Below are positions 2,332 through 14,785 of a DNA stretch of 64,000 nucleotides, in pieces. The notes beneath the pieces were generated by a model. It did not search any database and was not told the DNA's origin. It saw only the letters and a list, made by a program, of their open reading frames with translations. A program made the position numbers and the translations under genes. The DNA comes from Oligoflexia bacterium (lineage in GTDB: Bacteria > Bdellovibrionota_G > JANQFH01). The stretch spans positions 62,001 to 126,000 of the forward strand of contig JANQFH010000056.1 in the NCBI GenBank assembly GCA_028277945.1, in the 5' to 3' direction. The first letter of the stretch is position 1. The number at the start of each line of letters is the position of its first letter.

Positions 2332-2730
2332 ATGGATAACATGACTGAAGCAGCAAAGACCATACTGGTTATCGACGACGAGAAGCTTGTATGCAAAATG
2401 ATGACGCGCGTTGCTAACACGCTTGGTTACGATGTCATTACTTGTACCAGTAGTGCTGCAGCTCTTAGAGCATTCACTACCATGCACAAGTCCATAGGTC
2501 TGATCATCATCGATCTTGTTATGCCAGATATGTACGGTACCGATTTGTTGTCTGAACTACGGGCTATCAATCCAAATGTGAAAGCACTGATCTCCTCGGG
2601 CCTTTCCAATCAAGAAAGTCAGAAAATGGAATACTCAGAAACGACAGGGTTTATCCAAAAACCCTTTACCATTTCTGAGATTTCAGCGAAGATTCATCGC
2701 GCGCTTAACGTGGCAGAGGTTTCACACTAA
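2332..2730 (+). CDS. Single-domain response regulator (CheY-like)
   Basis: 132 residues, a lone receiver. It has the acidic pair DD at 15-16, the acceptor Asp at about 61 in IIIDLVMPD, the Ser-Ser-Gly of strand 4 and the conserved Lys in IQKPF. No output domain follows, so it works as a phosphate shuttle or by protein contact. An alternative ATG lies three codons downstream (2341). It follows the Hpt gene by 10 bases, so the two are probably cotranscribed from the sigma-54 promoter at 1195. Its stop overlaps the stop of the convergent NtrC-type gene by 4 bases. Confidence 0.88.
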   Translation: MDNMTEAAKTILVIDDEKLVCKMMTRVANTLGYDVITCTSSAAALRAFTTMHKSIGLIIIDLVMPDMYGTDLLSELRAINPNVKALISSGLSNQESQKMEYSETTGFIQKPFTISEISAKIHRALNVAEVSH

Positions 2731-4211
2731 ACAACACCGCGTTGGTTTTCCGACACTTCTCTTGCCTTTACCTTTTTATTGGCTGCGCTGTACTCTTCTT
2801 CGTTCGCTAAACTTCTATATGGCGACGCGTCAATCGCGCTCTGATTCATCAACTTCTTAAAGTTACTTCGCTCCATACCTGCTATGGCGGCAGCTTTGGT
2901 AATGTTGCCTTTGGTTGTGGTTAACAGCGTATCGATGTAGCCCCGGGTCAATTTGAGTACGGCTTCACGTTTTGCCTCTTTATAAGTTAGGTAATCGCCA
3001 CTGCCGGCCTTTTTTGGGTCGAACATCTGCCCGGTCGATTTGAGTAGGTTCGTCGGTAGAACCGCCGTACTTAAGGTAATACCCTTCTCTAAGATCACCG
3101 CACGTTCGATGGCATTTTCAAGCTCGCGCACATTACCAGGCCAACTGTAGTTGTATAGAAGTTGCATCGTTGCACGGTCGATGCCTTCTATCTGCTTACT
3201 ATTTCTCTCATTGTACTTCTTAATAAAGTGCATCACTAAGAGGTCGATATCTCCCTTGCGTTCCCGCAAAGGCGGCATGCTAATATTGATGACGTTTATA
3301 CGATAGTATAAGTCCTCACGGAACTTACCCTGTTCAACCAATTTATCGAGCTCCTTATTCGTGGCAGCAATGATACGCACATCCACACGACGCACCTCCG
3401 AGCTGCCCACAGGAATGATCTCTCCTTCTTGCAACGCACGTAGCAACCTTACCTGGGTGGTCTGCGGAATCTCACCAATTTCATCCAAAAACAGGGTGCC
3501 GTGGTTGGCAGCCTCGAACAATCCGCGTTTATCACTAAACGCACTCGTAAAAGCACCCTTAACATGACCAAAAAGCTCACTCTCAATCAAGGACTCTGAC
3601 AGCGATGAACAGTTGCAGGCCAAAAACGCACGCTCGCTACGGGCACTGTTAAAATGTACGGCACGGGCAACCAGCTCCTTACCCGTACCGCTGGCGCCTT
3701 CAATGAGAATCGTAGCATCACTATTTGCCACATCCCTTACGGTTCTAAAGACCCGCTGCATTTCTGGGCTTGTACCAATAATATTTTCAAACCCATACTT
3801 GTCTTTGAGGTCCTTTTCGGCGTTACTGAGCCGTTTGACCATCTCTCGGTGTTCAACTGCTTTTTTGATGGCAATAGGTACAACGTCAATATTTTCAAAG
3901 GGTTTTGTAATAAAATCAAAGGCTCCCAGTTTTACAGCTTCAATCGCATCTTCAATGGTTGCATAGGCTGTCATCATAATAACCTCAGCCTGTGGCGCCC
4001 TAAGCTTAAAGTCTTTCAGCAAGTCCATACCTGAAGCGTCATCAAGACGGATATCTAGGAGCACGACATCGAAGCTCTCTGTTTGTAACTTTTCTATAGC
4101 CTCTTGGCCTGAATGCGCTAACTCCACCTGGCACTCAAGAGTCTTGGTAACAACCTTCTTTATCGACTGAGCGACAATCTGATCGTCATCAACGACTAAA
4201 ATACTGTTCAT
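2727..4211 (-). CDS. NtrC-family sigma-54-dependent response regulator
   Basis: 494 residues. Receiver at 1-120 with acceptor Asp53. AAA+ domain from about 143 to 380 with Walker A GASGTGKE (172-179), Walker B GTLFLDE (238-244) and an Arg-rich sensor region. C-terminal helix-turn-helix around 430-465 (ITKAAAIAGMERSNFKKLM). The sigma-54 contact loop reads GAFTSA (219-224), not GAFTGA; such variants exist in the family, but the change is worth noting. A poorly conserved 30-residue tail follows the HTH. It overlaps the upstream H-box gene by 23 bases, so both are made together. It is a plausible activator of the local sigma-54 promoters that carry the 21-base element (inference). Confidence 0.92.
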   Translation of the reverse strand: MNSILVVDDDQIVAQSIKKVVTKTLECQVELAHSGQEAIEKLQTESFDVVLLDIRLDDASGMDLLKDFKLRAPQAEVIMMTAYATIEDAIEAVKLGAFDFITKPFENIDVVPIAIKKAVEHREMVKRLSNAEKDLKDKYGFENIIGTSPEMQRVFRTVRDVANSDATILIEGASGTGKELVARAVHFNSARSERAFLACNCSSLSESLIESELFGHVKGAFTSAFSDKRGLFEAANHGTLFLDEIGEIPQTTQVRLLRALQEGEIIPVGSSEVRRVDVRIIAATNKELDKLVEQGKFREDLYYRINVINISMPPLRERKGDIDLLVMHFIKKYNERNSKQIEGIDRATMQLLYNYSWPGNVRELENAIERAVILEKGITLSTAVLPTNLLKSTGQMFDPKKAGSGDYLTYKEAKREAVLKLTRGYIDTLLTTTKGNITKAAAIAGMERSNFKKLMNQSAIDASPYRSLANEEEYSAANKKVKAREVSENQRGVV

Positions 4212-4893
4212 GACTTTTGCTCCCTTCCTCTCTTGTATCCTGGACTGGCAAGATACAAGTACACTCTATAAAAGCACTGTCGGTTTTCTGCCACTTTACG
4301 GCACCGCCCATGGTGTGGGCGATCTCTTTACACAACTGTTGATGCTCGGGATCAACCATACGATCTGCGCTCGTCTCTACCTTGATGTAGGCTTCAACTG
4401 CCTCATGCTTTGGCTTGAAGACAAGGCATAGTGAAGAACCCGGCTTGATGAAACCATAAAGGCCAAGAATGACCTGTAAGATCAGATGCGTGGATTCGTA
4501 CATGGGTATAGAAAAGTCACCCATTTCTTCGGGCATCGAAGTCGTTAGAGTAACCCGATTATGCTTAAGCAGATATTCGAGTAATTCTTGGGTGTGATTA
4601 CAAACTAGAGCTGCAGAGGCAAAATGTGGTACTGTTTTACCGCCAACACGAGAAAAATCCAAGACACTTTTCATTCTCTTTATGCAGGTAGAAAGACACT
4701 CATCGGAATCCTCCAGGGTTTCCTTGAGCTCTTTGTCAAGTGACGCATCGACCAGTGCCAACTGTAAGTTGGTACGGGCGCCGCACAGTAAGTTGTTCCA
4801 ATGATGCAGAAATCCCGGCATCATGACGCCGAGAAGCGCTGCTTTGGCGAGTTCTATAGATGAAAGCCCTGATCTCATGGTTGCAGGTCCCAA
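4189..4893 (-). CDS. HisKA-like protein without a recognisable ATPase domain
   Basis: 234 residues. Near residue 30 MPGFLHHWNNLLCGA resembles the H box of NtrB-like kinases (HDFNNLL), followed by a second long helix as in a dimerising HisKA hairpin. The rest should be the HATPase domain, but I see no N box (NAxxA) and no DxGxG or GxGxG loops; only short hydrophobic strands remain. It could be a degenerate kinase, a ChpT-like phosphotransferase or a dedicated phosphatase for the NtrC-type regulator, whose start it overlaps by 23 bases. It has its own extended -10 promoter upstream. Function is uncertain. Confidence 0.65.
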   Translation of the reverse strand: MGPATMRSGLSSIELAKAALLGVMMPGFLHHWNNLLCGARTNLQLALVDASLDKELKETLEDSDECLSTCIKRMKSVLDFSRVGGKTVPHFASAALVCNHTQELLEYLLKHNRVTLTTSMPEEMGDFSIPMYESTHLILQVILGLYGFIKPGSSLCLVFKPKHEAVEAYIKVETSADRMVDPEHQQLCKEIAHTMGGAVKWQKTDSAFIECTCILPVQDTREEGSKSHEQYFSR

Positions 4894-5062: not shown

Positions 5063-5470
5063 TTATAGTATTTGCATAGCACGGGAGATACGCTGGCTCA
5101 CGTAACCCGGTTTATAAAGATCTTCACAGAGTAGAAAATCGTCCACACCACACTCTACCAGCCGCTGGATGGCGTTGGCATGCTGTTGGGATTCGGTGAC
5201 CGCCACCACGGGAATATGACTCCACTGCGGATTCTCCTGAATCCTCTTATAGAACTCCAGGCCAGGGCTGTAGAGCATGCTGTCGTTGGTCAAAATCAGC
5301 CTTGGCAACTTCTTGTAGTGCTCCATAAAGGCGGCTGCTAACTGGTTGGAGGCGGCTACGACAATATCGTAGCCGAGAGGCAGCAGTGCCTGACGATACA
5401 TGGCGTTGAGCGCTGGAATGTCGTTAATCACCAAAATGAATTCATCGGGTTGCCACTGTCTGGTTGTCAT
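5063..5470 (-). CDS. Pseudo-receiver (degenerate CheY-like) protein
   Basis: 135 residues from the ATG at 5470, which has a strong GGAGG five bases upstream. A GTG at 5563 opens a longer frame, but a near-perfect sigma-54 promoter (5513-5528) lies inside that extension, so 5470 is preferred. Receiver-like strands are visible (FILVINDIPAL, PRLILTNDSML, PVVAVTES). The acceptor position reads Asn at about 62 (ILTND) and the strand-1 acidic pair reads ND, so phosphorylation is doubtful. It lies downstream of the kinase gene 5790-7583 but has its own promoter and 21-base element. It is the second Asp-to-Asn pseudo-receiver in this sigma-54 set. Confidence 0.78.
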   Translation of the reverse strand: MTTRQWQPDEFILVINDIPALNAMYRQALLPLGYDIVVAASNQLAAAFMEHYKKLPRLILTNDSMLYSPGLEFYKRIQENPQWSHIPVVAVTESQQHANAIQRLVECGVDDFLLCEDLYKPGYVSQRISRAMQIL

Positions 5471-5512
5471 AACTCCCTCCAATTCCACTAGGCGAGGCGC
5501 ATAACGAGAATG

Positions 5513-5528
5513 AGCAACATCTGTGCCA
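5513..5528 (-). promoter_or_regulatory. Sigma-54 promoter for the 5470 pseudo-receiver
   Basis: Minus strand TGGCACA-GATG-TTGCT matches the consensus at nearly every position, with GG (5526-5527) and GC (5514-5515) 10 bases apart. The predicted start is about 5502, which gives a 32-base leader that contains the GGAGG before the ATG at 5470. Confidence 0.8.
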
Positions 5529-5618
5529 GCTACTAAGCCAGAGTCGCAGTCTTGGTATTTCACAAAATTCCTTTTATTCCAAATAGTTAAAAAATATGAG
5601 CAAGACGGGTTTAACCAA

Positions 5619-5789: not shown

Positions 5790-7583
5790 CTAGTGGCGTA
5801 GGCGGTGCAGCTGTTCTGCCTCCACGGTGTGTGAATCCACAACATCGCCGTAGAGCTCAGCCACAGCCCCCTTAGCAAGCGGTAGGTGCACGACAACTGT
5901 AGTACCCACGCCCTCTTCACTCTGCACCTCTATGGAACCATCATGGCTTTCACAGATCTCTTTGATCACGGACATGCCTAGCCCCATGCCACGAAATCGA
6001 CTGTTGTCTTTGGTGGTGGCAAAGTCATCAAAGATCGACTTCAGCCTCTCTTTGGCAATACCACAACCGTTGTCCTTGATAGCAATCTGCGCCATAGAGG
6101 TTGGCAACTGCTGTTTTACCTGAACCTGCAGATAGCCCCCATGTGGATTTTCGCTCATCGCCTGAATGGCGTTCTCAAAGATGTTGCTAAGCATGCGGCG
6201 AATGGCCAACATATCTCCTAAGACCAAGGTCGGAGATTTCTCGCCGACAAACTCTACCTGAACATGTTGTCTATTCAGACTCTCCTTAAAGCTATCTAAA
6301 ACCTGCCCGATCTCGGCATCGATATTCAACGCAATCTTGACCAAGCGTTTCGGCCTTGCCAAATCACGCAAACGTGTCACCAAATAGTTCAAGCTCTCAA
6401 GCTCGCGCTGCATGACTTCGTGAAAGTGCTCTCTAAAACCCGCATCATCATACTTCTTTGTCAGTAGATCACTGTTGAGCTTTAGATTCTGAATTGGGTG
6501 TTTGAGATCGTGTGCCAGGGCTGCGGCAATACGACCAAAAGCTGCGGCACGCTCACGTGTGGCTAACTCACCTTGCAACTTGTCAAGGTCATCACCCATC
6601 TTGTTGAAGGCATCTGCAAGGCGCGCCAACTCATCCCTACCACTTACCGGAACCTTATAATCGAGCTCACCCTTGGCCAAATGCTGTACCCCTTCCATAA
6701 GCTTCTCCACCGGCTGCACAAGGCTTTTCCCACCCAGGTAGCCGACAAAAACAGCCACAGCCAACACGAGAACAGAAATGAGGCTAAGCGCGAGCACAAT
6801 GTAGCGCGCACCGGCAAAAGCCTCTGAGAGAGGCTGTTGCACCACCAGCCGCCAACCCGTAGCACTAACCGTGGCAAAGGACTTGAGCACCTGCTCCCCC
6901 CAGACGTTGTGCGATGTCGCAAAGATGGGGGTTAGATCCTGCTGTTGCAATACCAACGGTTTGCCACGGCGATCCCCGTGCGCAATGAGCTGCCCGGCCG
7001 TATCGATGAGCAGGCCATTGCCTGCCTTGCCAACTCGTATGGTGTCGACAATCTCCCATAGATAGAGCATATTCATGTTAGCCAGCAGTACGCCGACACT
7101 CTTGCCTCGCTGTAAGACAGGCACACCAATAACCAGTTTGGGCACAAGATCCTCGGCAATCACCATGGGTGAGCGGTAGGCGCGCCGCTCATGCAGAGCA
7201 TACTGAAATGCCTGTTGGTAGGGGTCGAGGTTGACCTCATCCAGCTCTGAGCTGACGACCAAATCTCCCCTACTATCGACGAGCATCACCGACTCTAAAG
7301 AGGGGAAGCGAATGACATGGTTGCGCACGATGGTCTCTTTTTGCCATGGGCTTAAGCCAACGCGCTCAATGTTTTGCGCCAAAGAGTAGAGCAGCGCCAC
7401 CTCTTCTTCGATATAGCTGTTGATCCGCTGGGCAGCAATACGGGCCAGCTGCTGGTTGTGCTCCTCAATGGCTTGACGTGTGGAAATATAGGACCACACC
7501 GTGGCAATACCGCCAATCAGGATGAGTGGCAGCATGGAGGTGAGCAAAAACAGCAGCATGAGTTTGTGGGAGATCTTTTTCAT
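5790..7583 (-). CDS. Membrane sensor histidine kinase with Cache-type periplasmic domain
   Basis: 597 residues. A first membrane helix (about 9-30) is followed by a periplasmic region (31-260) whose pattern fits a double Cache sensor. A second helix (261-284), a HAMP linker (285-338), a HisKA domain with LAHDLKHPIQNL (His near 358) and a HATPase domain with N box NIFENAIQAM, DNGCGI and GMGLGM follow. It is a complete, apparently active kinase. Its ATG overlaps the stop of the solute-binding lipoprotein gene by 4 bases (ATGA), so the two are translationally coupled and likely work together: the lipoprotein captures a ligand and presents it to the sensor. The most likely partner is the NtrC-type regulator at 11296 (inferred from neighbourhood). 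Confidence 0.9.
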   Translation of the reverse strand: MKKISHKLMLLFLLTSMLPLILIGGIATVWSYISTRQAIEEHNQQLARIAAQRINSYIEEEVALLYSLAQNIERVGLSPWQKETIVRNHVIRFPSLESVMLVDSRGDLVVSSELDEVNLDPYQQAFQYALHERRAYRSPMVIAEDLVPKLVIGVPVLQRGKSVGVLLANMNMLYLWEIVDTIRVGKAGNGLLIDTAGQLIAHGDRRGKPLVLQQQDLTPIFATSHNVWGEQVLKSFATVSATGWRLVVQQPLSEAFAGARYIVLALSLISVLVLAVAVFVGYLGGKSLVQPVEKLMEGVQHLAKGELDYKVPVSGRDELARLADAFNKMGDDLDKLQGELATRERAAAFGRIAAALAHDLKHPIQNLKLNSDLLTKKYDDAGFREHFHEVMQRELESLNYLVTRLRDLARPKRLVKIALNIDAEIGQVLDSFKESLNRQHVQVEFVGEKSPTLVLGDMLAIRRMLSNIFENAIQAMSENPHGGYLQVQVKQQLPTSMAQIAIKDNGCGIAKERLKSIFDDFATTKDNSRFRGMGLGMSVIKEICESHDGSIEVQSEEGVGTTVVVHLPLAKGAVAELYGDVVDSHTVEAEQLHRLRH

Positions 7584-9223
7584 GGTTGAGTCGCTATCTT
7601 GGCACTCTGTCCCTGCCAGTCCTCATCAATATACCACTGGGTTATATCACCCCAGAAGTTGCCAGGGTTGATATCAGCCCCTTTTACACGAGCGTGTAAG
7701 GCGACGTGGATCTTCTTCCAATAGAGGAAGATTCCCGGCGGCTCTTCAAACAGCTGCTGGCTAAAGGCCTTGAGAAAATCCTCTCTTTTAGCAAAGCCTC
7801 CTGCAGCATGCTTTTGGAAAAGGCGGGACATCTTCGCGTTTCGATAAGGAAAGAGCGATTCTTCGCCTCCGGAAAAGTACCGGTGAAGGCTAGCAGGTTC
7901 TGAATAGGCTCGTGAGTAGATATGAAACAGGTGATCATTTGTCAATTTTACATTCTCCATCATCTTATCTAATTCCACAGTTCTAACGGCAAGGCGAATT
8001 CCTATCTCCTGAAGATGGGCTTGCACTGCCAACATCAGCTGTTTAGATTCAGCATCACCTTGGAAGGCGACTGCCTGGAGCTTGAAAACTTTATTGTCCT
8101 TTTTAAGCTCGTTTTTGACGCGGTCGTAGTGAAACCCACTCTGTTGCAAAAGTCGTAGTGCTCGCTCAGGATCATAGGGATAGGGCGTAATGCCTCTACC
8201 ATGTGAAACCAGGTCAGGATTCATAATGCCGCTGCTGAGCTCAGCATCACCTCGTAACACTCGCTCAATGATCGCCTCTCTATCCACGGCTAAATTGAGC
8301 GCGCGCCGCACACGCACATCCTGTAAATCCTCGTTGTTCATGTTAAAAACAAGCATGTAGAAAAAGTTGTTTTGAAAGGAGACAACCTGCAGATGTGGTT
8401 GATCCTTAGTAATCCGTTTTTCATCACTGTTAAGATACCAAAACACATCCAAATCAGAACGCATGAGCTGCGTCCACGCCAACTTTTTGCTCTTGAGGGC
8501 TGTAAAGGAGATTTGGTTGATCTTTGGTTTGCCTCCCCAATAATTCTCGTGACGCTTTAGCAAAACATGGTCAGAGGACCACTTTGCAACCCTATAAGGC
8601 CCCGTGCTATTAATGAATTGAGAGGGCTCTGCTTTCTTATTGCATGGATTGTCTGATGTAGGAACGACGGCTATGGCAAGACCAAACCATACAGGCTGCG
8701 CTCCTTTCTCTAAATAGAGAGCGATTTCTCTCTCATTGAGCACTGCAACTCTCTTGATGGATTGCAGACGAGAGTACGCCCAAGAACCTGTGGACTCCTG
8801 CATGGCACACTCGAGCGATGCCCTAACATCCGCTACTGTGAGTGGTTGTCCATTGTGGAACTCAACACCTGATTTTAGCTTAACTCTCCATATATCAAAG
8901 TCGTCAGATGAATCATCTAAGGATATCTCTTGTGCAAGCATTGGTTGGAAGGTTCCATCTTTAGCAAAATCCATTAGGCCTTCGAAAACAAAAGACAGAA
9001 TGTGGGAGCTGTAACCGCTTATTCGAGTAAATGGATCTAAGGGCTCAAAGACTCCAAGGGTGCCAACACGCAGAGTGTTTGAAGGCGGGACTAGAACGTT
9101 CTCTTGCGCCTGCTTCCCTTGAGGCTTCTCCATGGAACAGCTGCACAGAAGCAGTAAGGGAAGTAATACTTTGAAAATTCTAGACCGCCTACACCAAGGC
9201 CTTTTTTTCTGCGATCCTGACAT
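7580..9223 (-). CDS. Family-5 extracellular solute-binding lipoprotein (peptide-binding type)
   Basis: 547 residues. The N-terminus has a basic stretch, a Leu-rich helix and a lipobox LCSC, so Cys29 is probably lipidated. The remainder fits the OppA/DppA class of ABC solute-binding proteins: LRVGTLGVFEPLDPF, WRVKLKSGVEFHNGQPLTVADV, YDPERALRLLQQSGF. No permease or ATPase gene lies nearby, so import is not its obvious job here. The 4-base overlap with a sensor kinase and the position just after a candidate modified-peptide gene suggest a periplasmic peptide receptor for signalling (inference). The start near 9223 is supported by the signal sequence directly after it. Confidence 0.88.
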   Translation of the reverse strand: MSGSQKKRPWCRRSRIFKVLLPLLLLCSCSMEKPQGKQAQENVLVPPSNTLRVGTLGVFEPLDPFTRISGYSSHILSFVFEGLMDFAKDGTFQPMLAQEISLDDSSDDFDIWRVKLKSGVEFHNGQPLTVADVRASLECAMQESTGSWAYSRLQSIKRVAVLNEREIALYLEKGAQPVWFGLAIAVVPTSDNPCNKKAEPSQFINSTGPYRVAKWSSDHVLLKRHENYWGGKPKINQISFTALKSKKLAWTQLMRSDLDVFWYLNSDEKRITKDQPHLQVVSFQNNFFYMLVFNMNNEDLQDVRVRRALNLAVDREAIIERVLRGDAELSSGIMNPDLVSHGRGITPYPYDPERALRLLQQSGFHYDRVKNELKKDNKVFKLQAVAFQGDAESKQLMLAVQAHLQEIGIRLAVRTVELDKMMENVKLTNDHLFHIYSRAYSEPASLHRYFSGGEESLFPYRNAKMSRLFQKHAAGGFAKREDFLKAFSQQLFEEPPGIFLYWKKIHVALHARVKGADINPGNFWGDITQWYIDEDWQGQSAKIATQP

Positions 9224-9344
9224 TTTTAACTACTTGAAACTATGTGCTTTTTATACAGTGGCGCACTGATACAAACATGCGTCAGAGGATTTCTATAAAC
9301 ATGTAGGTTATAAGTAGGGAGAAGTGGGTGGGATGTCAAGCAGA

Positions 9345-9387
9345 CCACCCCACAGCCGCATGGTTTTAGCCGTGGGCTGTGGGGTGG
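9345..9387 (-). repeat. Strong 13-bp hairpin between peptide and binding-protein genes
   Basis: CCACCCCACAGCC (9345-9357) pairs perfectly with GGCTGTGGGGTGG (9375-9387); part of the 17-base loop can pair further. It lies about 40 bases after the peptide stop and about 120 bases before the lipoprotein gene start. No U-tract follows on either strand, so a simple intrinsic terminator is unlikely. A role in holding the 3' end of the peptide mRNA or lowering downstream expression is inference. Confidence 0.7.
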
Positions 9388-9425
9388 ATAAGCAGATCTC
9401 TACACCTTAACGGTGCGTATGCGGA

Positions 9426-9533
9426 TTAAACAGGACCTTCACCACAACGTGGCCCGCCGGTACCACCACCACCTGGCTGGCGCTCCTGGCGACGACGGCT
9501 GTCCTTACGGATTACCTTGCTCTTTGCTTCCAT
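9426..9533 (-). CDS. Candidate RiPP precursor peptide (35 aa, Arg-rich leader, Gly-rich core)
   Basis: An ATG at 9533 is preceded by a strong Shine-Dalgarno (AAGGAGG, 6 bases before the ATG). The frame encodes 35 residues and ends with TAA. The first half is basic (four Lys and six Arg among residues 4-18; MEAKSKVIRK, DSRRRQER). The second half is QPGGGGTGGPRCGEGPV, Gly/Pro-rich with a single Cys at position 30. There is no signal peptide. It lies 115 bases downstream of a radical SAM/SPASM maturase on the same strand, the classical arrangement for a ribosomally made, post-translationally modified peptide. I do not recognise the family. The chemistry of any modification and the export route are unknown; no exporter gene is adjacent. 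Confidence 0.75.
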   Translation of the reverse strand: MEAKSKVIRKDSRRRQERQPGGGGTGGPRCGEGPV

Positions 9534-9604
9534 GACGATCCTCCTTTATCGGTCAATCCTTGAAGGATTAGGGAACTATTCAGCTTTTAAGGAGGCTTGT
9601 TGTG

Positions 9605-9632
9605 GCAGGGCAATTTTGGCAGGGTGCCCTGC
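9605..9632 (-). repeat. Competing stem-loops between maturase and peptide genes
   Basis: GCAGGGCA (9605-9612) can pair with TGCCCTGC (9625-9632). Alternatively GCAGGG (9619-9624) pairs with CCCTGC (9627-9632). The stems exclude each other and lie in the leader of the peptide gene. This could be an attenuation or processing structure; no U-tract is seen. Confidence 0.4.
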
Positions 9633-9648
9633 TTAGACAATAATAATG

Positions 9649-11037
9649 TTAAGCTGTTCGCTTAATAGGACTCTTTTGCGGCTCTTCCTTTGGCTCGAGT
9701 AGCTCAGAGGGCTTCACGCCACCTCCGTGCGTACCGGCCTCGAGTTGCAGCAGCGTGGGTACGGTCTTTTCAAAAAACTCACCCGAGCATTGAAAGGCGC
9801 TGTAGTCGCCCTTTTGTTTGAATACTGCCCAGCGGCAGCCACCAAAGCAGCCGGCTAGGTTCTTGCAGTCCCCACATGTAGGGTGGTCTATGGCGTTATA
9901 GCTCATGACCTTATCGTAGTTCTCATTGTAACCCGTATGCACATTGCCTATGGAGGCGCGTTTGTCCCCAGCAAAGGCACCACAAGGGTAGATGTCACCA
10001 AGCGGATCAATGGAGATAGCGTGCTCGATTAGAGCCTCACAAGGACCAGCAACAACCCGGCGTTGGCTACGCAGGTTGCGCTGTTGCAGCTCCTTTTCAA
10101 TGCGCAGATAACCGCTCATGTCGCCTTCTCCTAAGTAGGCGATCGCATCTGCGGTCTCTTTGGTGCCGGCATTCATGATCGGCTTAAAACCGAACTTACG
10201 CACAGAGTTGTCCAGACCCTCGTCACGCAGGTAGTCGAGCAGTTTAAAGATACTCTCAACCGCTTCAGGATCGTTCTGATCATAATTGCCTCCGAGGGTG
10301 AAAGAGGTAAGCACCCCTATTTCCTTCAGGTTTTTTAAAATAACCTCAAAGCTACCCCTTCCACCTCTCAGAGGCCTTTGCTTGTCATGCCTCTCTTTGT
10401 CACCATCAAGGGTGATCTTAATGCGTTTAAGCCCAAGCTCTTTCAGCTCGGCGTAGAGTTCTTTTTTAAGATGAAAACCATTGGTGATCAGACCAAATTC
10501 AAAACGGCGGTTGTTTGCCATGCAGAAGTTGCGAAACTCATGGATGAGATAAAACAGCGTCTCTTGTTCAATGAGGGGCTCACCCCCAAAGAAGGTAACG
10601 TCCAACTCGGGAAAGTCCTTGGAAAGCATCATCTCGCGTGTCCACGCCACCACCTCTTGTTGTGTCTCTGGCTTCATGCGCACATTGCCTAAGTACTCTG
10701 CTTCAAAGCAGTAAGGGCAGGCAAAGTTGCAGCGATAAGAGAGCAGGATGGTAAGTGGCAAGGTCTGGGTCTGCTTGGTGTGGGCGTCATACCACTTGCG
10801 CAACTCATCTTTTTCATCAAAGAGATGGTTAACGAGGAAGCTCTCCTCTTTCATGATGCGCAACTCTTTGGGATAGTTCTTTAGGATGGTTTCATCGCCA
10901 GCCTTGAGCGCATCAAAGAGCTCGGTGGGAATCTGCATCAGGCTGTCGGCAAAACTGTTGTAGATCAGGCTCATATCGCCTGCGGCAGAGGCGATGCCTC
11001 GTTGGACTTCGTATGTGTAGCGGGATAGAACCTGCAC
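9649..11037 (-). CDS. Radical SAM/SPASM peptide maturase
   Basis: 462 residues, GTG start. Residues 5-40 (RYTYEV, LIYNSF) form the N-terminal region seen in SPASM-type peptide maturases. The radical SAM cluster motif CNFACPYC (Cys103, 107, 110) and GGEP (151-154) are present. The C-terminal SPASM domain has the full seven-Cys pattern: C-X12-GX4C at SIDPLGDIYPC, then CGDCKNLAGCFGGC (CX2CX5CX3C), then the last Cys at 417. Such enzymes bind auxiliary iron-sulfur clusters and crosslink or otherwise modify peptides or proteins. The 35-residue peptide at 9426-9533 is the obvious substrate candidate. A sigma-54 promoter lies just upstream, with a predicted leader of only about 5 bases. anSME-like sulfatase maturation is less likely because no sulfatase is nearby. 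Confidence 0.9.
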   Translation of the reverse strand: MQVLSRYTYEVQRGIASAAGDMSLIYNSFADSLMQIPTELFDALKAGDETILKNYPKELRIMKEESFLVNHLFDEKDELRKWYDAHTKQTQTLPLTILLSYRCNFACPYCFEAEYLGNVRMKPETQQEVVAWTREMMLSKDFPELDVTFFGGEPLIEQETLFYLIHEFRNFCMANNRRFEFGLITNGFHLKKELYAELKELGLKRIKITLDGDKERHDKQRPLRGGRGSFEVILKNLKEIGVLTSFTLGGNYDQNDPEAVESIFKLLDYLRDEGLDNSVRKFGFKPIMNAGTKETADAIAYLGEGDMSGYLRIEKELQQRNLRSQRRVVAGPCEALIEHAISIDPLGDIYPCGAFAGDKRASIGNVHTGYNENYDKVMSYNAIDHPTCGDCKNLAGCFGGCRWAVFKQKGDYSAFQCSGEFFEKTVPTLLQLEAGTHGGGVKPSELLEPKEEPQKSPIKRTA

Positions 11038-11052
11038 AGCGCCCGTGTTATA

Positions 11053-11068
11053 AGCGAAACTCGTGCCA
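11053..11068 (-). promoter_or_regulatory. Sigma-54 promoter for the maturase/peptide operon
   Basis: Minus strand TGGCACG-AGTT-TCGCT: the -24 half is a perfect consensus and GG (11066-11067) is 10 bases from GC (11054-11055). The predicted start is about 11042, five bases before the GTG at 11037. The two palindromes at 11120 and 11201 lie 53-150 bases upstream, a normal enhancer distance. Confidence 0.8.
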
Positions 11069-11119
11069 AAAGTTATAGTGTTGATTTAATTAGATTGTTT
11101 CAGTGATTGTGCTGATCAA

Positions 11120-11141
11120 AGTGGCCAAGAAATTGGCCACT
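11120..11141. promoter_or_regulatory. Palindromic enhancer-like site 1
   Basis: AGTGGCCAA, four bases, TTGGCCACT: a perfect 9-bp inverted repeat. Its core TGGCCAA-N4-TTGGCCA recurs at 11201-11218. The arrangement fits dimer binding by an NtrC-type activator, for which the obvious candidate is the regulator encoded next to it at 11296. Confidence 0.75.
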
Positions 11142-11200
11142 CCCAGTCCATGGAAAGCAAGCTACTTGTTACTACATGTAAAAATTGCCATAGCCGATGA

Positions 11201-11218
11201 TGGCCAAGATCTTGGCCA
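11201..11218. promoter_or_regulatory. Palindromic enhancer-like site 2
   Basis: TGGCCAA-GATC-TTGGCCA, a perfect 7-bp inverted repeat with the same core and spacing as site 1. The centres are 79 bases apart. Paired sites of this kind allow activator oligomers to form upstream of sigma-54 promoters. Confidence 0.75.
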
Positions 11219-11221
11219 ACT

Positions 11222-11256
11222 GGACAACATCTCATCCGCATATCTTTAGGTTGTCC
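11222..11256 (+). repeat. Inverted repeat upstream of the NtrC-type gene
   Basis: GGACAAC (11222-11228) and GTTGTCC (11250-11256) are separated by 21 bases, about 40 bases before the ATG at 11296. It could be an operator with half sites three helical turns apart or a weak leader hairpin; nothing decides between these. Confidence 0.35.
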
Positions 11257-11295
11257 CATTGCCAGTGAGCCTAAAAACCGGTAAGGGAAAAGAAC

Positions 11296-12705
11296 ATGAG
11301 CCGCACCCATTTCAACATCTTAGTGGTCGATGACGACCGCAGTCTGCTTTCCACCATGGAGATCATCCTCAAAGATCATGGCAAGATCTCTGTCGCCAAT
11401 AGCGTGACACAGGCGAGAGAAATCCTGCAAAAGCAACCCATGCAGCTGATTTTTCTTGATATCCTGCTTCCTGACGGCAATGGCCTTGAGCTTTTGAAGG
11501 AGATCAAGGAGAGCCATCCAGCCACAGAGGTCGTCATGTTAACCGCCATCAAGGAGATCGATCGGGCGGTTGATGCGATCAAAAACGGGGCTCACGACTA
11601 CTTGACCAAAGACTTTAGTCCTGAAGAGATCCACATCTTAATCGACAAGATCCACCAAAAGCAGAGACAGCAGCGAGAGCTGACATTTTTGCGCTCGGAG
11701 GTTGCTGAAATGACCAACAAGGAGATGATCCTTGGTGATGGTCCCAAGAGTCGAGAGATTCGCGAGCTTCTTGCCAAGGTGGCCAACCTACCAGCAAGCG
11801 TGCTTATTGAGGGAGAGTCCGGTACGGGCAAGGAGCTGCTCGCACGGGCGATCCATAGTCAATCGCCACTGCGGGAGGCGCCCTTCATTACCATCCATGT
11901 CGCCTCGCTGCCAAGCAACCTTGTCGAATCTGCTCTCTTTGGCCATGAAAAGGGAGCGTTTACCGGAGCTACGCAGCAACGTCTTGGCAAGCTGGAGCTG
12001 GCAGATGGTGGCACGCTATTTCTTGATGAGGTGGGAGAGATCCCTGAGGATACACAGATCAAACTACTACGCTTTTTACAAGAGGGAGAGATCGAACGGA
12101 TTGGTAGTAACCGTACAATCAAACTCAACGTCAGGATCATCGCGGCAACCAATCGCGATCTCCTGCAACTGGTTAAACAGGGAGGTCTACGCCAAGACCT
12201 CTTCTACCGCCTCAACACCATTCCAATAAAACTACCCCCTCTACGGGAGCGCAGAGAGGATATCACCGCACTCGTGAATCTCTTCCTCAAGAGGTATTGC
12301 AACAACTTTGGTAAAAACCCAATGTGCCTTAGCAACACCGCTCTAAAAACACTCATCGCCTACCCTTGGCCAGGCAACATCCGTGAACTCGAGCACCTCG
12401 TCGAAAGGCTTGTGGCTATTCATGATAAAGAGAGTATCGATGAGCTCGACATACCGCTGGAATATACGTTGATGGGAACCGAGGCGTTGGATGAAATAGA
12501 GCAGCAGGCTGGAAAGCAGGCAAACGGTGACTACCTTAAAACCGCTACAGCGATCTTTGAGCGCAACCTCATTGACAAAGTCTTACAGAAAACCGGTGGT
12601 AACCGTACAAAAACGGCAAAGCAACTCGGTATTCCCCTAAGCACCCTGAAATTCAAGCTGCAGAAGCTCGGCATCAAGAAAAAGCATAAAGAGCTAGCAG
12701 AATAG
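11296..12705 (+). CDS. NtrC-family sigma-54-dependent response regulator
   Basis: 469 residues. Receiver 1-125 with acidic DDD at 12-14, acceptor Asp55 (IFLDILLPDG) and Lys105. AAA+ domain about 145-385 with Walker A GESGTGKE (173-180), canonical GAFTGA loop (220-225), Walker B GTLFLDE and the Arg-finger region LRERREDI. A Fis-type HTH lies at the C-terminus (GNRTKTAKQLGIPLSTLKFK). All key residues are intact. The gene is divergent from the maturase/peptide operon, and the space between them holds a sigma-54 promoter plus two palindromes, so it is the likely direct activator of that operon. Its likely kinase is the Cache-type kinase at 5790 (inference). Confidence 0.93.
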   Translation: MSRTHFNILVVDDDRSLLSTMEIILKDHGKISVANSVTQAREILQKQPMQLIFLDILLPDGNGLELLKEIKESHPATEVVMLTAIKEIDRAVDAIKNGAHDYLTKDFSPEEIHILIDKIHQKQRQQRELTFLRSEVAEMTNKEMILGDGPKSREIRELLAKVANLPASVLIEGESGTGKELLARAIHSQSPLREAPFITIHVASLPSNLVESALFGHEKGAFTGATQQRLGKLELADGGTLFLDEVGEIPEDTQIKLLRFLQEGEIERIGSNRTIKLNVRIIAATNRDLLQLVKQGGLRQDLFYRLNTIPIKLPPLRERREDITALVNLFLKRYCNNFGKNPMCLSNTALKTLIAYPWPGNIRELEHLVERLVAIHDKESIDELDIPLEYTLMGTEALDEIEQQAGKQANGDYLKTATAIFERNLIDKVLQKTGGNRTKTAKQLGIPLSTLKFKLQKLGIKKKHKELAE

Positions 12706-13403: not shown

Positions 13404-14060
13404 ATGAGGGTAACAGCAACGACAAAACAGCACAGCATGGTCCAACTGCTCAGCCTTTCGCTGATGTCGCTTACCCTGGTTGGCTGTGGCATTCTCCCCG
13501 CTCCTGCAGAAAATGACACCTTTAGTTGGGAAGAGCTGCCCATCACCTATTACATTTCCGAAGAGATGCCAAAAGAGGCTCAAGAGGAGATCCATGCTGC
13601 GTTTGCTGAGTGGGAAGCGGGTCTCAATGAGGATGCCTTTGAATTTGGTGGCTTGGTTGAGCTGGGTGAAAGTGAAATTGGCAACTCCTACCACGCCGGT
13701 AAAAACGTCATCTTTGCTTCCAGCGAGTCTGGACACATCGAGGCACCTTACGGAGATGGCATTGATGCCATCGCGAGAACCTTTGTTCATGGCGCCAGCA
13801 AAATCCGCGATACCGACGTTGTCTTCTATGAATTTGATCGTAATTACAACATCGGCCGTAAGACCACGGGAGATGTTTACTCTGTCAAGACTGTAATGAT
13901 GCATGAGATCGGCCGTATGCTCTTTGGCGACCGTGACGGCGACGATGCAGAAAGCGTTCTCAACAACCCTATCTATCCGCAAGGCCATGAGCTAGAGAAG
14001 ACCAAGCTCAGCCGCGGCGACATCGATCTCTTCTACGAAGTCTACGGGAACTTAATCTAG
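13404..14060 (+). CDS. Lipoprotein resembling a matrixin-type metalloprotease with a degenerate zinc site
   Basis: 218 residues from the ATG at 13404, which has GGAGG upstream. A TTG-initiated longer frame from 13362 is rejected because it would start inside the -12 element. The signal sequence ends in lipobox LVGC (Cys28). The body follows the matrixin pattern: a helix with AAFAEWE, hydrophobic strands (NVIFASS, TDVVFYEFD), then VMMHEIGRMLFGDRD. Metzincins need HExxHxxGxxH/D. Here the second His is Arg171 (codon CGT, one step from CAT) and the third ligand position is also altered. Proteolysis is therefore doubtful; a binding role or a specialised site is possible. It is the terminal gene of the sigma-54 island. 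Confidence 0.8.
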   Translation: MRVTATTKQHSMVQLLSLSLMSLTLVGCGILPAPAENDTFSWEELPITYYISEEMPKEAQEEIHAAFAEWEAGLNEDAFEFGGLVELGESEIGNSYHAGKNVIFASSESGHIEAPYGDGIDAIARTFVHGASKIRDTDVVFYEFDRNYNIGRKTTGDVYSVKTVMMHEIGRMLFGDRDGDDAESVLNNPIYPQGHELEKTKLSRGDIDLFYEVYGNLI

Positions 14061-14498
14061 ACAAGTTCCCCGAAACCCCTCGGATAAAAAACAACGACTT
14101 TGTCTCTGGTCGGAAGTTAAGTAATCAATGACTTGGCCTTTTGCTAACTGCATCTTAACTTCTTGAGCTGTGGCCACATGAATGGCATCTAAAGGTCTTA
14201 GCTGCAGCATTGCCCTGTATCGACGAATCAGAACCGTAGCCTGGGCGATGACCGCCTCGGTAATATGAGCAATCTGAAACCGTTCGAAGACTTCTTTTGC
14301 ATTGTCTTCCAGAGTAACCTGAAGTTGCAAATCTCCCTTCGCTTGGGTAACAATACCTGCCTGAGTCTCCACCTCTGAAAGGACTGACGTAATCAGATAA
14401 TTGTACTTCTTCAGCAATCGTAGTGCTTGTTGTCCGCGGCTATCTGCACACGTAACAGACACCAAAGTTGAGGCATCCGTATACAGAAAATTTGACAT
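14052..14498 (-). CDS. PIN-domain toxin (VapC-like ribonuclease)
   Basis: 148 residues. The PIN acidic residues are in place: Asp8 in LYTDAS, a Glu in LSEVE, Asp near 104 in PLDAIHVATA and a final Asp in YLTSDQ. PIN toxins cut RNA in a metal-dependent way and are held inactive by the partner antitoxin. The gene begins 2 bases after the antitoxin stop, the usual antitoxin-first order. Its stop overlaps the convergent 13404 lipoprotein gene by 9 bases. Confidence 0.87.
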   Translation of the reverse strand: MSNFLYTDASTLVSVTCADSRGQQALRLLKKYNYLITSVLSEVETQAGIVTQAKGDLQLQVTLEDNAKEVFERFQIAHITEAVIAQATVLIRRYRAMLQLRPLDAIHVATAQEVKMQLAKGQVIDYLTSDQRQSRCFLSEGFRGTCLD

Positions 14499-14500
14499 TA

Positions 14501-14785
14501 TTATCTATCAGACAGAACTGCCTTAACACCAGCCCTGGAATCCAAACCTAAATCTTCTAGTTGCAGACTGCTAATCGATTTTTTGGCTCGCTTTCCCACC
14601 AGCCCGGAAGCAAAGAGTCGATTGATAGAGTCTTCGGCAAAAGGAATGATCTGTGCCACGGGTTCAGCCTTATTGGTAATCGTTACCACGTCCTTCGACG
14701 CCTGCACCCTCTTGATGACACTGGAGGTTCTGTTACTCAACTCCCGAATGCCGATACTATAACGCTTCTTCTTGTGGGTACTCAT
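14501..14785 (-). CDS. Phd/YefM-type antitoxin
   Basis: 94 residues. The N-terminus (IGIRELSNRTSSVIKRVQASKDVVTITNKAEPVAQIIP) follows the Phd/YefM DNA-binding fold: ELSN-type start, helix, then VTITNxxxPVA. The C-terminal half is the toxin-binding tail. The ATG lies where transcription should begin from the promoter at 14792-14821, so the message is probably leaderless. The operator palindrome in that promoter is expected to be bound by this protein, the normal autoregulation of such pairs. Confidence 0.87.
   Translation of the reverse strand: MSTHKKKRYSIGIRELSNRTSSVIKRVQASKDVVTITNKAEPVAQIIPFAEDSINRLFASGLVGKRAKKSISSLQLEDLGLDSRAGVKAVLSDR

Follow-up and report, generated by a model that had tools for sequence, protein, structure and literature searches.

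A 35-codon open reading frame on the minus strand (positions 9426-9533) of the analysed window, a 64,000-nucleotide stretch of a contig from an Oligoflexia bacterium, is proposed, with a probability of about 0.5, to encode the precursor of a radical-SAM-modified, ranthipeptide-like RiPP that is sensed by the solute-binding lipoprotein, histidine kinase and activator encoded in its own cassette. In the window, a divergently oriented NtrC-type sigma-54 activator gene (a response regulator, 11296-12705, plus strand, orthologous to the activator of related cassettes) is followed on the minus strand by genes for a radical-SAM/SPASM maturase with a predicted N-terminal RRE (9649-11037), the peptide, an SBP_bac_5 solute-binding lipoprotein (SBP, 7580-9223) and a dCache-HAMP histidine kinase (5790-7583). 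Few signalling molecules are known in Acidobacteriota, Omnitrophota and related uncultured lineages, and a cassette that makes and apparently senses a modified peptide would supply, in one place, candidates for the ligand, its receptor and kinase, the regulator and the promoter. Moreover, genes of 35 codons, which escape profile libraries, can be found by the slot they occupy.

The 35-residue gene is very probably real. Translation of the minus strand yields MEAKSKVIRKDSRRRQERQPGGGGTGGPRCGEGPV, arranged as a leader (approximately residues 1-18, with KVIRK at 6-10) and a core, QPGGGGTGGPRCGEGPV, which starts at about residue 19 and contains Cys30 and Glu32; plus-strand translation of 9426-9533 gave nothing relevant. 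The short frame, the basic leader and the Shine-Dalgarno (SD) sequence AAAGGAGG (9540-9547, minus strand, 6 nt upstream of the ATG at 9533), which had been described in a sequence-only reading of this DNA, were all reproduced by translation and from the upstream sequence. The frame is located 115 bases from the maturase gene, on its downstream side, and is the single SD-led, Cys-containing ORF in the 425-nt gap that separates the maturase stop from the SBP start (ORFs being required to have an ATG start, 25-80 codons, a strong SD and a Cys). When this gap was dinucleotide-shuffled 3000 times, such an SD-preceded Cys ORF appeared 16 times (≈0.5%), and only five ORFs of this kind are present on the two strands of the whole window. 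The peptide ORF is single-copy in its 2.86-Mb genome.

A leader matrix was trained on the Acidobacteriota peptides together with those of loci L049 and L005, the window peptide and that of locus L189 (same phylum) being left out; the Omnitrophota leaders do not fit the anchor of the matrix and were therefore not included in the training set. The peptide ORF ranked 1st among 74 SD-preceded starts and, more modestly, 18th among 2432 starts of any kind. The top matrix score belonged to a plus-strand ORF at 11103-11249 with an SPW motif, which was dropped as it has no SD and is probably due to chance. It is very improbable that the peptide ORF itself arose by chance, or encodes a small, basic, Gly-rich protein that is unrelated, with the real substrate being encoded elsewhere: such a reading would draw on the 18 starts that match or beat the matrix score, on a core motif that is not common to the relatives and on the fact that the compared loci include no close relative to show purifying selection, but it is opposed by the position of the frame as sole SD-ORF in a conserved slot, by the rarity of such frames among the shuffles and by a slot peptide of the same build in L189.

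As read from the sequences, this slot is filled with a short Cys-containing peptide in dozens of distantly related bacteria. Such a peptide is encoded directly beside the orthologous maturase gene in 19 of 19 Acidobacteriota cassettes, and likewise in L189, L210, L049, L055 and most Omnitrophota loci, with a length of 20-40 residues in the Acidobacteriota, L189 and the Omnitrophota. The Acidobacteriota peptides (≈30 residues, of the type MKITVIKKAxxxxKPQNFCPWIxDE) follow the maturase gene, while those of the Omnitrophota mostly resemble MEIIRKGSDxVxxxGPLGCCFPxGTxGLR and are located upstream of it. Features shared by the window peptide and its relatives are a basic V/I-I-K/R-K leader and a late Cys; the window peptide and that of L189, MKVKKSEKKKTVVVRKGERHLPPSKMPPPWPSCHDAGMF, furthermore have P-x-C-x-[DE] in common. 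The assignment as a RiPP precursor adjoining its maturase, suggested previously, is thus backed by conservation of the slot around an SD-led short ORF, by the leader motif and by cassette synteny. Conservation of GG-P-C-G, proposed at the same time, was looked for among the related precursors and was absent, the Gly run being private to the window peptide. Of the peptides compared with NCBIfam and Pfam, only that of L056 and, weakly, that of L048 were matched, in both cases by geopeptide. L196 and L198 (as well as L126 and L130) carry additional precursor genes that retain the Asp five positions on but have another residue in place of the Cys (GTLRPWLVDV, KVSPWLVDV).

The maturase carries the complete SPASM Cys pattern (C333-x13-G-x4-C352 and C388-x2-C391-x5-C397-x3-C401...C417), and its radical-SAM and SPASM cysteines do not vary between its relatives, the best of which among the compared loci are 32-34% identical. 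A scan of the genome contigs with the single maturase sequence gave no match, an alignment-based scan gave matches, and a scan of plasmids retrieved distant maturases only. In the predicted structure (mean pLDDT 84), the N-terminus follows the fold order of an RRE (strand-strand-strand-helix-helix-helix), and this region is accordingly predicted to be an RRE-like leader-binding domain. The best PDB match of the model, over its full length, is CteB (TMq 0.68), which is the nearest solved structure by sequence as well as by fold; together with the Cys pattern, this places the enzyme nearest to the known ranthisynthases, as expected for a ranthipeptide maturase.

With respect to named families, the maturase is closest to the geopeptide maturases (TIGR04280, 239 bits, cut-off 400), which fall inside the same clan and similarly adjoin very short precursors. 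However, the maturase score is below the cut-off and the window peptide has no match to TIGR04229, so that by profile neither belongs to the geopeptides; in addition, the geopeptide core has CC rather than a single Cys, and the SBP is lacking from the seven geopeptide loci. SCIFF/CteB resembles the present system in the combination of RRE and SPASM domains, but SCIFF has six Cys in ≈45 residues where the window peptide has one Cys and another leader, which sets the latter apart from SCIFF. The freyrasin system PapA/PapB (Cys-X3-Asp/Glu thioethers) is likewise related, the PapB profile matching the maturase with 145 bits, below its cut-off of 340; its precursor also has Cys with a downstream acidic residue, but the window peptide has a single Cys, and C-x-E or C-x4-D/E is found here instead of C-x3-D.

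The position of the acidic residue bears on the nature of the crosslink. The Acidobacteriota precursors have C-x4-[DE], i.e. an acidic residue five positions after the Cys, in 19 of 21 cases, the Omnitrophota precursors have CC-x-P-x-G-T, with Thr five positions after the second Cys, in 12 of 15, and the window peptide and that of L189 have C-x-E and C-x-D, respectively. CteB joins Cys32 to Thr37, or to Thr34 according to another report, that is to a residue five or two places on (PMC8326336), and PapB tolerates variable spacing, accepting Cys-Xn-Asp and linking Cys to Asp/Glu with n of 0-6 residues between (PMC9413430). The Cys-acidic spacing of the precursors suggests a Cys-to-acidic-side-chain thioether in the window, L189 and Acidobacteriota peptides and, taken together with the CteB and PapB chemistry, makes a Cys30-Glu32 thioether plausible. 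The earlier description of the one Cys as being without a partner is therefore doubtful, since the spacing between the Cys and an acidic residue is constant in related precursors; a Cys-to-side-chain link, mentioned in that reading as one alternative, agrees with this spacing.

The peptide and maturase genes are accompanied by the same sensor and regulator genes across lineages, as expected for a system of the autoinducer type. In the Acidobacteriota the order, on one strand, is sigma-54 activator, maturase, peptide, SBP_bac_5 and dCache kinase; the typical order in Omnitrophota/Auribacterota is activator, a large outer-membrane-type gene (a TonB receptor wherever Pfam was applied), SBP, peptide, maturase, ABC exporter and kinase. 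The TonB receptor and the ABC exporter, which is of the fused type, are additions of the Omnitrophota cassettes (checked with Pfam in L174, L171 and L182). Considering loci of at least 7 kb, SBP and kinase are both present in 16 of 18 Acidobacteriota and 12 of 17 Omnitrophota loci, compared with 0 of 57 maturase loci outside the clan, a control made up mostly of Firmicutes, and 0 of 7 geopeptide loci. The clan with SBP and kinase cassettes corresponds to the starred split of the maturase tree (99/97), in which the window pairs with L189 (94/75); several branches are long, and the inner placements are unsure. In three geopeptide-type loci of Nitrospirota (L050, L052 and L053), a sigma-54 activator is located near the maturase and there is no SBP; these loci are possibly a simpler relative of the cassette.

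The ligand of the SBP may not be the peptide, since both nickel/metallophore binders and peptide binders are found among the relatives of this protein. Its best NCBIfam matches are the nickel-binding NikA and CntA, a binder of staphylopine-metal complexes, and its PDB relatives include several nickel-binding proteins, so that a peptide metallophore is a serious, albeit unlikely, rival: the modified Cys peptide would be exported, bind metal and return, the complex being sensed by the NikA-like lipoprotein and the kinase, and production would consequently track metal need rather than cell number. A single or paired Cys could provide soft metal ligation, and the TonB-dependent receptor and ABC exporter of the Omnitrophota cassettes would suit such a role. 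On the other hand, all the NCBIfam scores are far below cut-off and AppA and peptide binders score alike, the cassette has neither importer permease nor metal enzyme, the Cys thiol would be lost if engaged in a thioether, and regulation is by a dedicated two-component activator rather than by a metalloregulator.

It is also doubtful, though conceivable, that the peptide is a maturase substrate whose product (an antimicrobial or a small cofactor derived from the peptide) is independent of the sensors, with SBP and kinase reading an outside cue that turns production on. Producer and sensor genes are frequently linked even where the product is not the ligand, the low conservation of the core resembles that of peptides under diversifying selection, and no exporter is present in the window or in the Acidobacteriota cassettes; yet no immunity gene was seen, and the cassette retains, from phylum to phylum, an SBP of the peptide/metal-complex type that has no accompanying permeases. 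Self-sensing of the peptide product would most simply account for the constant association of a peptide operon with a binding lipoprotein that lacks permeases, a kinase whose Cache domain is extracytoplasmic, and an activator.

The intergenic region between activator and maturase points to a regulatory connection of this kind. It contains two perfect TGGCCAA-N4-TTGGCCA dyads of activator type, TGGCCAAGATCTTGGCCA (11201-11218) and TGGCCAAGAAATTGGCCA (11122-11139), 79 bp apart, which have no other perfect copy in the 2.86-Mb genome, as well as a sigma-54 -24/-12 element with one mismatch (TGGCACGAGTTTCGCT, 11053-11068, minus strand). Of the 19 Acidobacteriota loci, 12 have dyad-like sites (within two mismatches of GGCCAA-N4-TTGGCC) upstream of the maturase, a 24.5-fold enrichment over the rest of the scanned loci, and in L191, L194 and L197 such sites form pairs with a spacing of 78-80 bp; the dyad is absent from L189, which weighs against a self-sensed product. 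In loci without the dyad, the recognition helix of the activator mostly has KH and not KF/KY (p 0.002, a value that ignores relatedness). The peptide operon promoter thus carries a regulator-type site, as an autoinducer-type system should, and, as far as can be judged from sequence, the maturase-peptide operon is under the control of the divergent activator. Two further genomic sites are one mismatch off the dyad (G000 C59:278826-278843 and C61:43305-43322) and are possible extra targets of the activator. The predicted sigma-54 start (≈11042) lies ≈5 nt ahead of the sole in-frame maturase start, GTG 11037, which would imply a leaderless mRNA, or else a wrongly assigned start or promoter, and is a further point against the self-sensing model. 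A strong stem-loop without a U-run separates the peptide and SBP genes (9345-9387, minus strand), and strong stem-loops also occur 3' of the peptide gene in several relatives. No intrinsic terminator was found after this hairpin, which perhaps sets peptide expression above that of SBP and kinase; an Rfam search of 9150-11400 gave no match.

In the self-sensing model, the basic, strand-forming leader (KVIRK) would dock on the N-terminal RRE of the maturase, which would link Cys30 to the side chain of a neighbouring residue, Glu32 being the most likely partner, and form a non-alpha thioether as in ranthipeptide chemistry. The leader would then be cleaved off and the core would exit the cytoplasm. 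Outside the inner membrane, the lipoprotein would bind the product and hand it to the dCache kinase, which would phosphorylate the activator; bound to the dyads, the latter would turn on the maturase-peptide operon. With such a positive loop, the peptide would be a signal that its producer senses, or else a product of which the cell gauges the return. Against this model stand the core, which has little in common with its relatives except the Cys and its acidic neighbour, the modest leader match without the SD filter, the Firmicutes-rich control, and a cassette with neither exporter nor leader peptidase in the window. The contig does encode two full-length ABC exporter homologues, at a distance of ≈200 kb.

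Lantibiotic autoinduction, e.g. that of nisin with NisK/NisR, similarly couples a modified peptide to a dedicated two-component system acting at its own operon. The present cassette differs in having a separate binding lipoprotein, a dCache kinase, a sigma-54 activator and radical-SAM chemistry, its autoinduction being putative. A search of the open-access literature retrieved nothing on geopeptide or on a radical-SAM peptide with NtrC, SBP and kinase. At slightly less than even odds, the cassettes represent an undescribed type of Gram-negative signalling that spans phyla, in which a crosslinked peptide, derived from precursors below gene-caller length, acts through a lipoprotein and dCache kinase on its own sigma-54 operon.

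Other genes near the cassette were also noted. A response-regulator receiver protein (5063-5563, minus strand), downstream of the kinase, and a second sigma-54 response regulator (2727-4211, minus strand) are of uncertain membership in the system. A 234-aa ORF (4189-4893, minus strand) has no Pfam match and contains LHHWNNLLCGARTNLQLAL, which resembles a degenerate histidine-kinase phosphoacceptor box. Finally, a PIN-domain protein (14052-14785, minus strand) adjoins a weak Phd/YefM antitoxin match, the two being likely to form a toxin-antitoxin pair.
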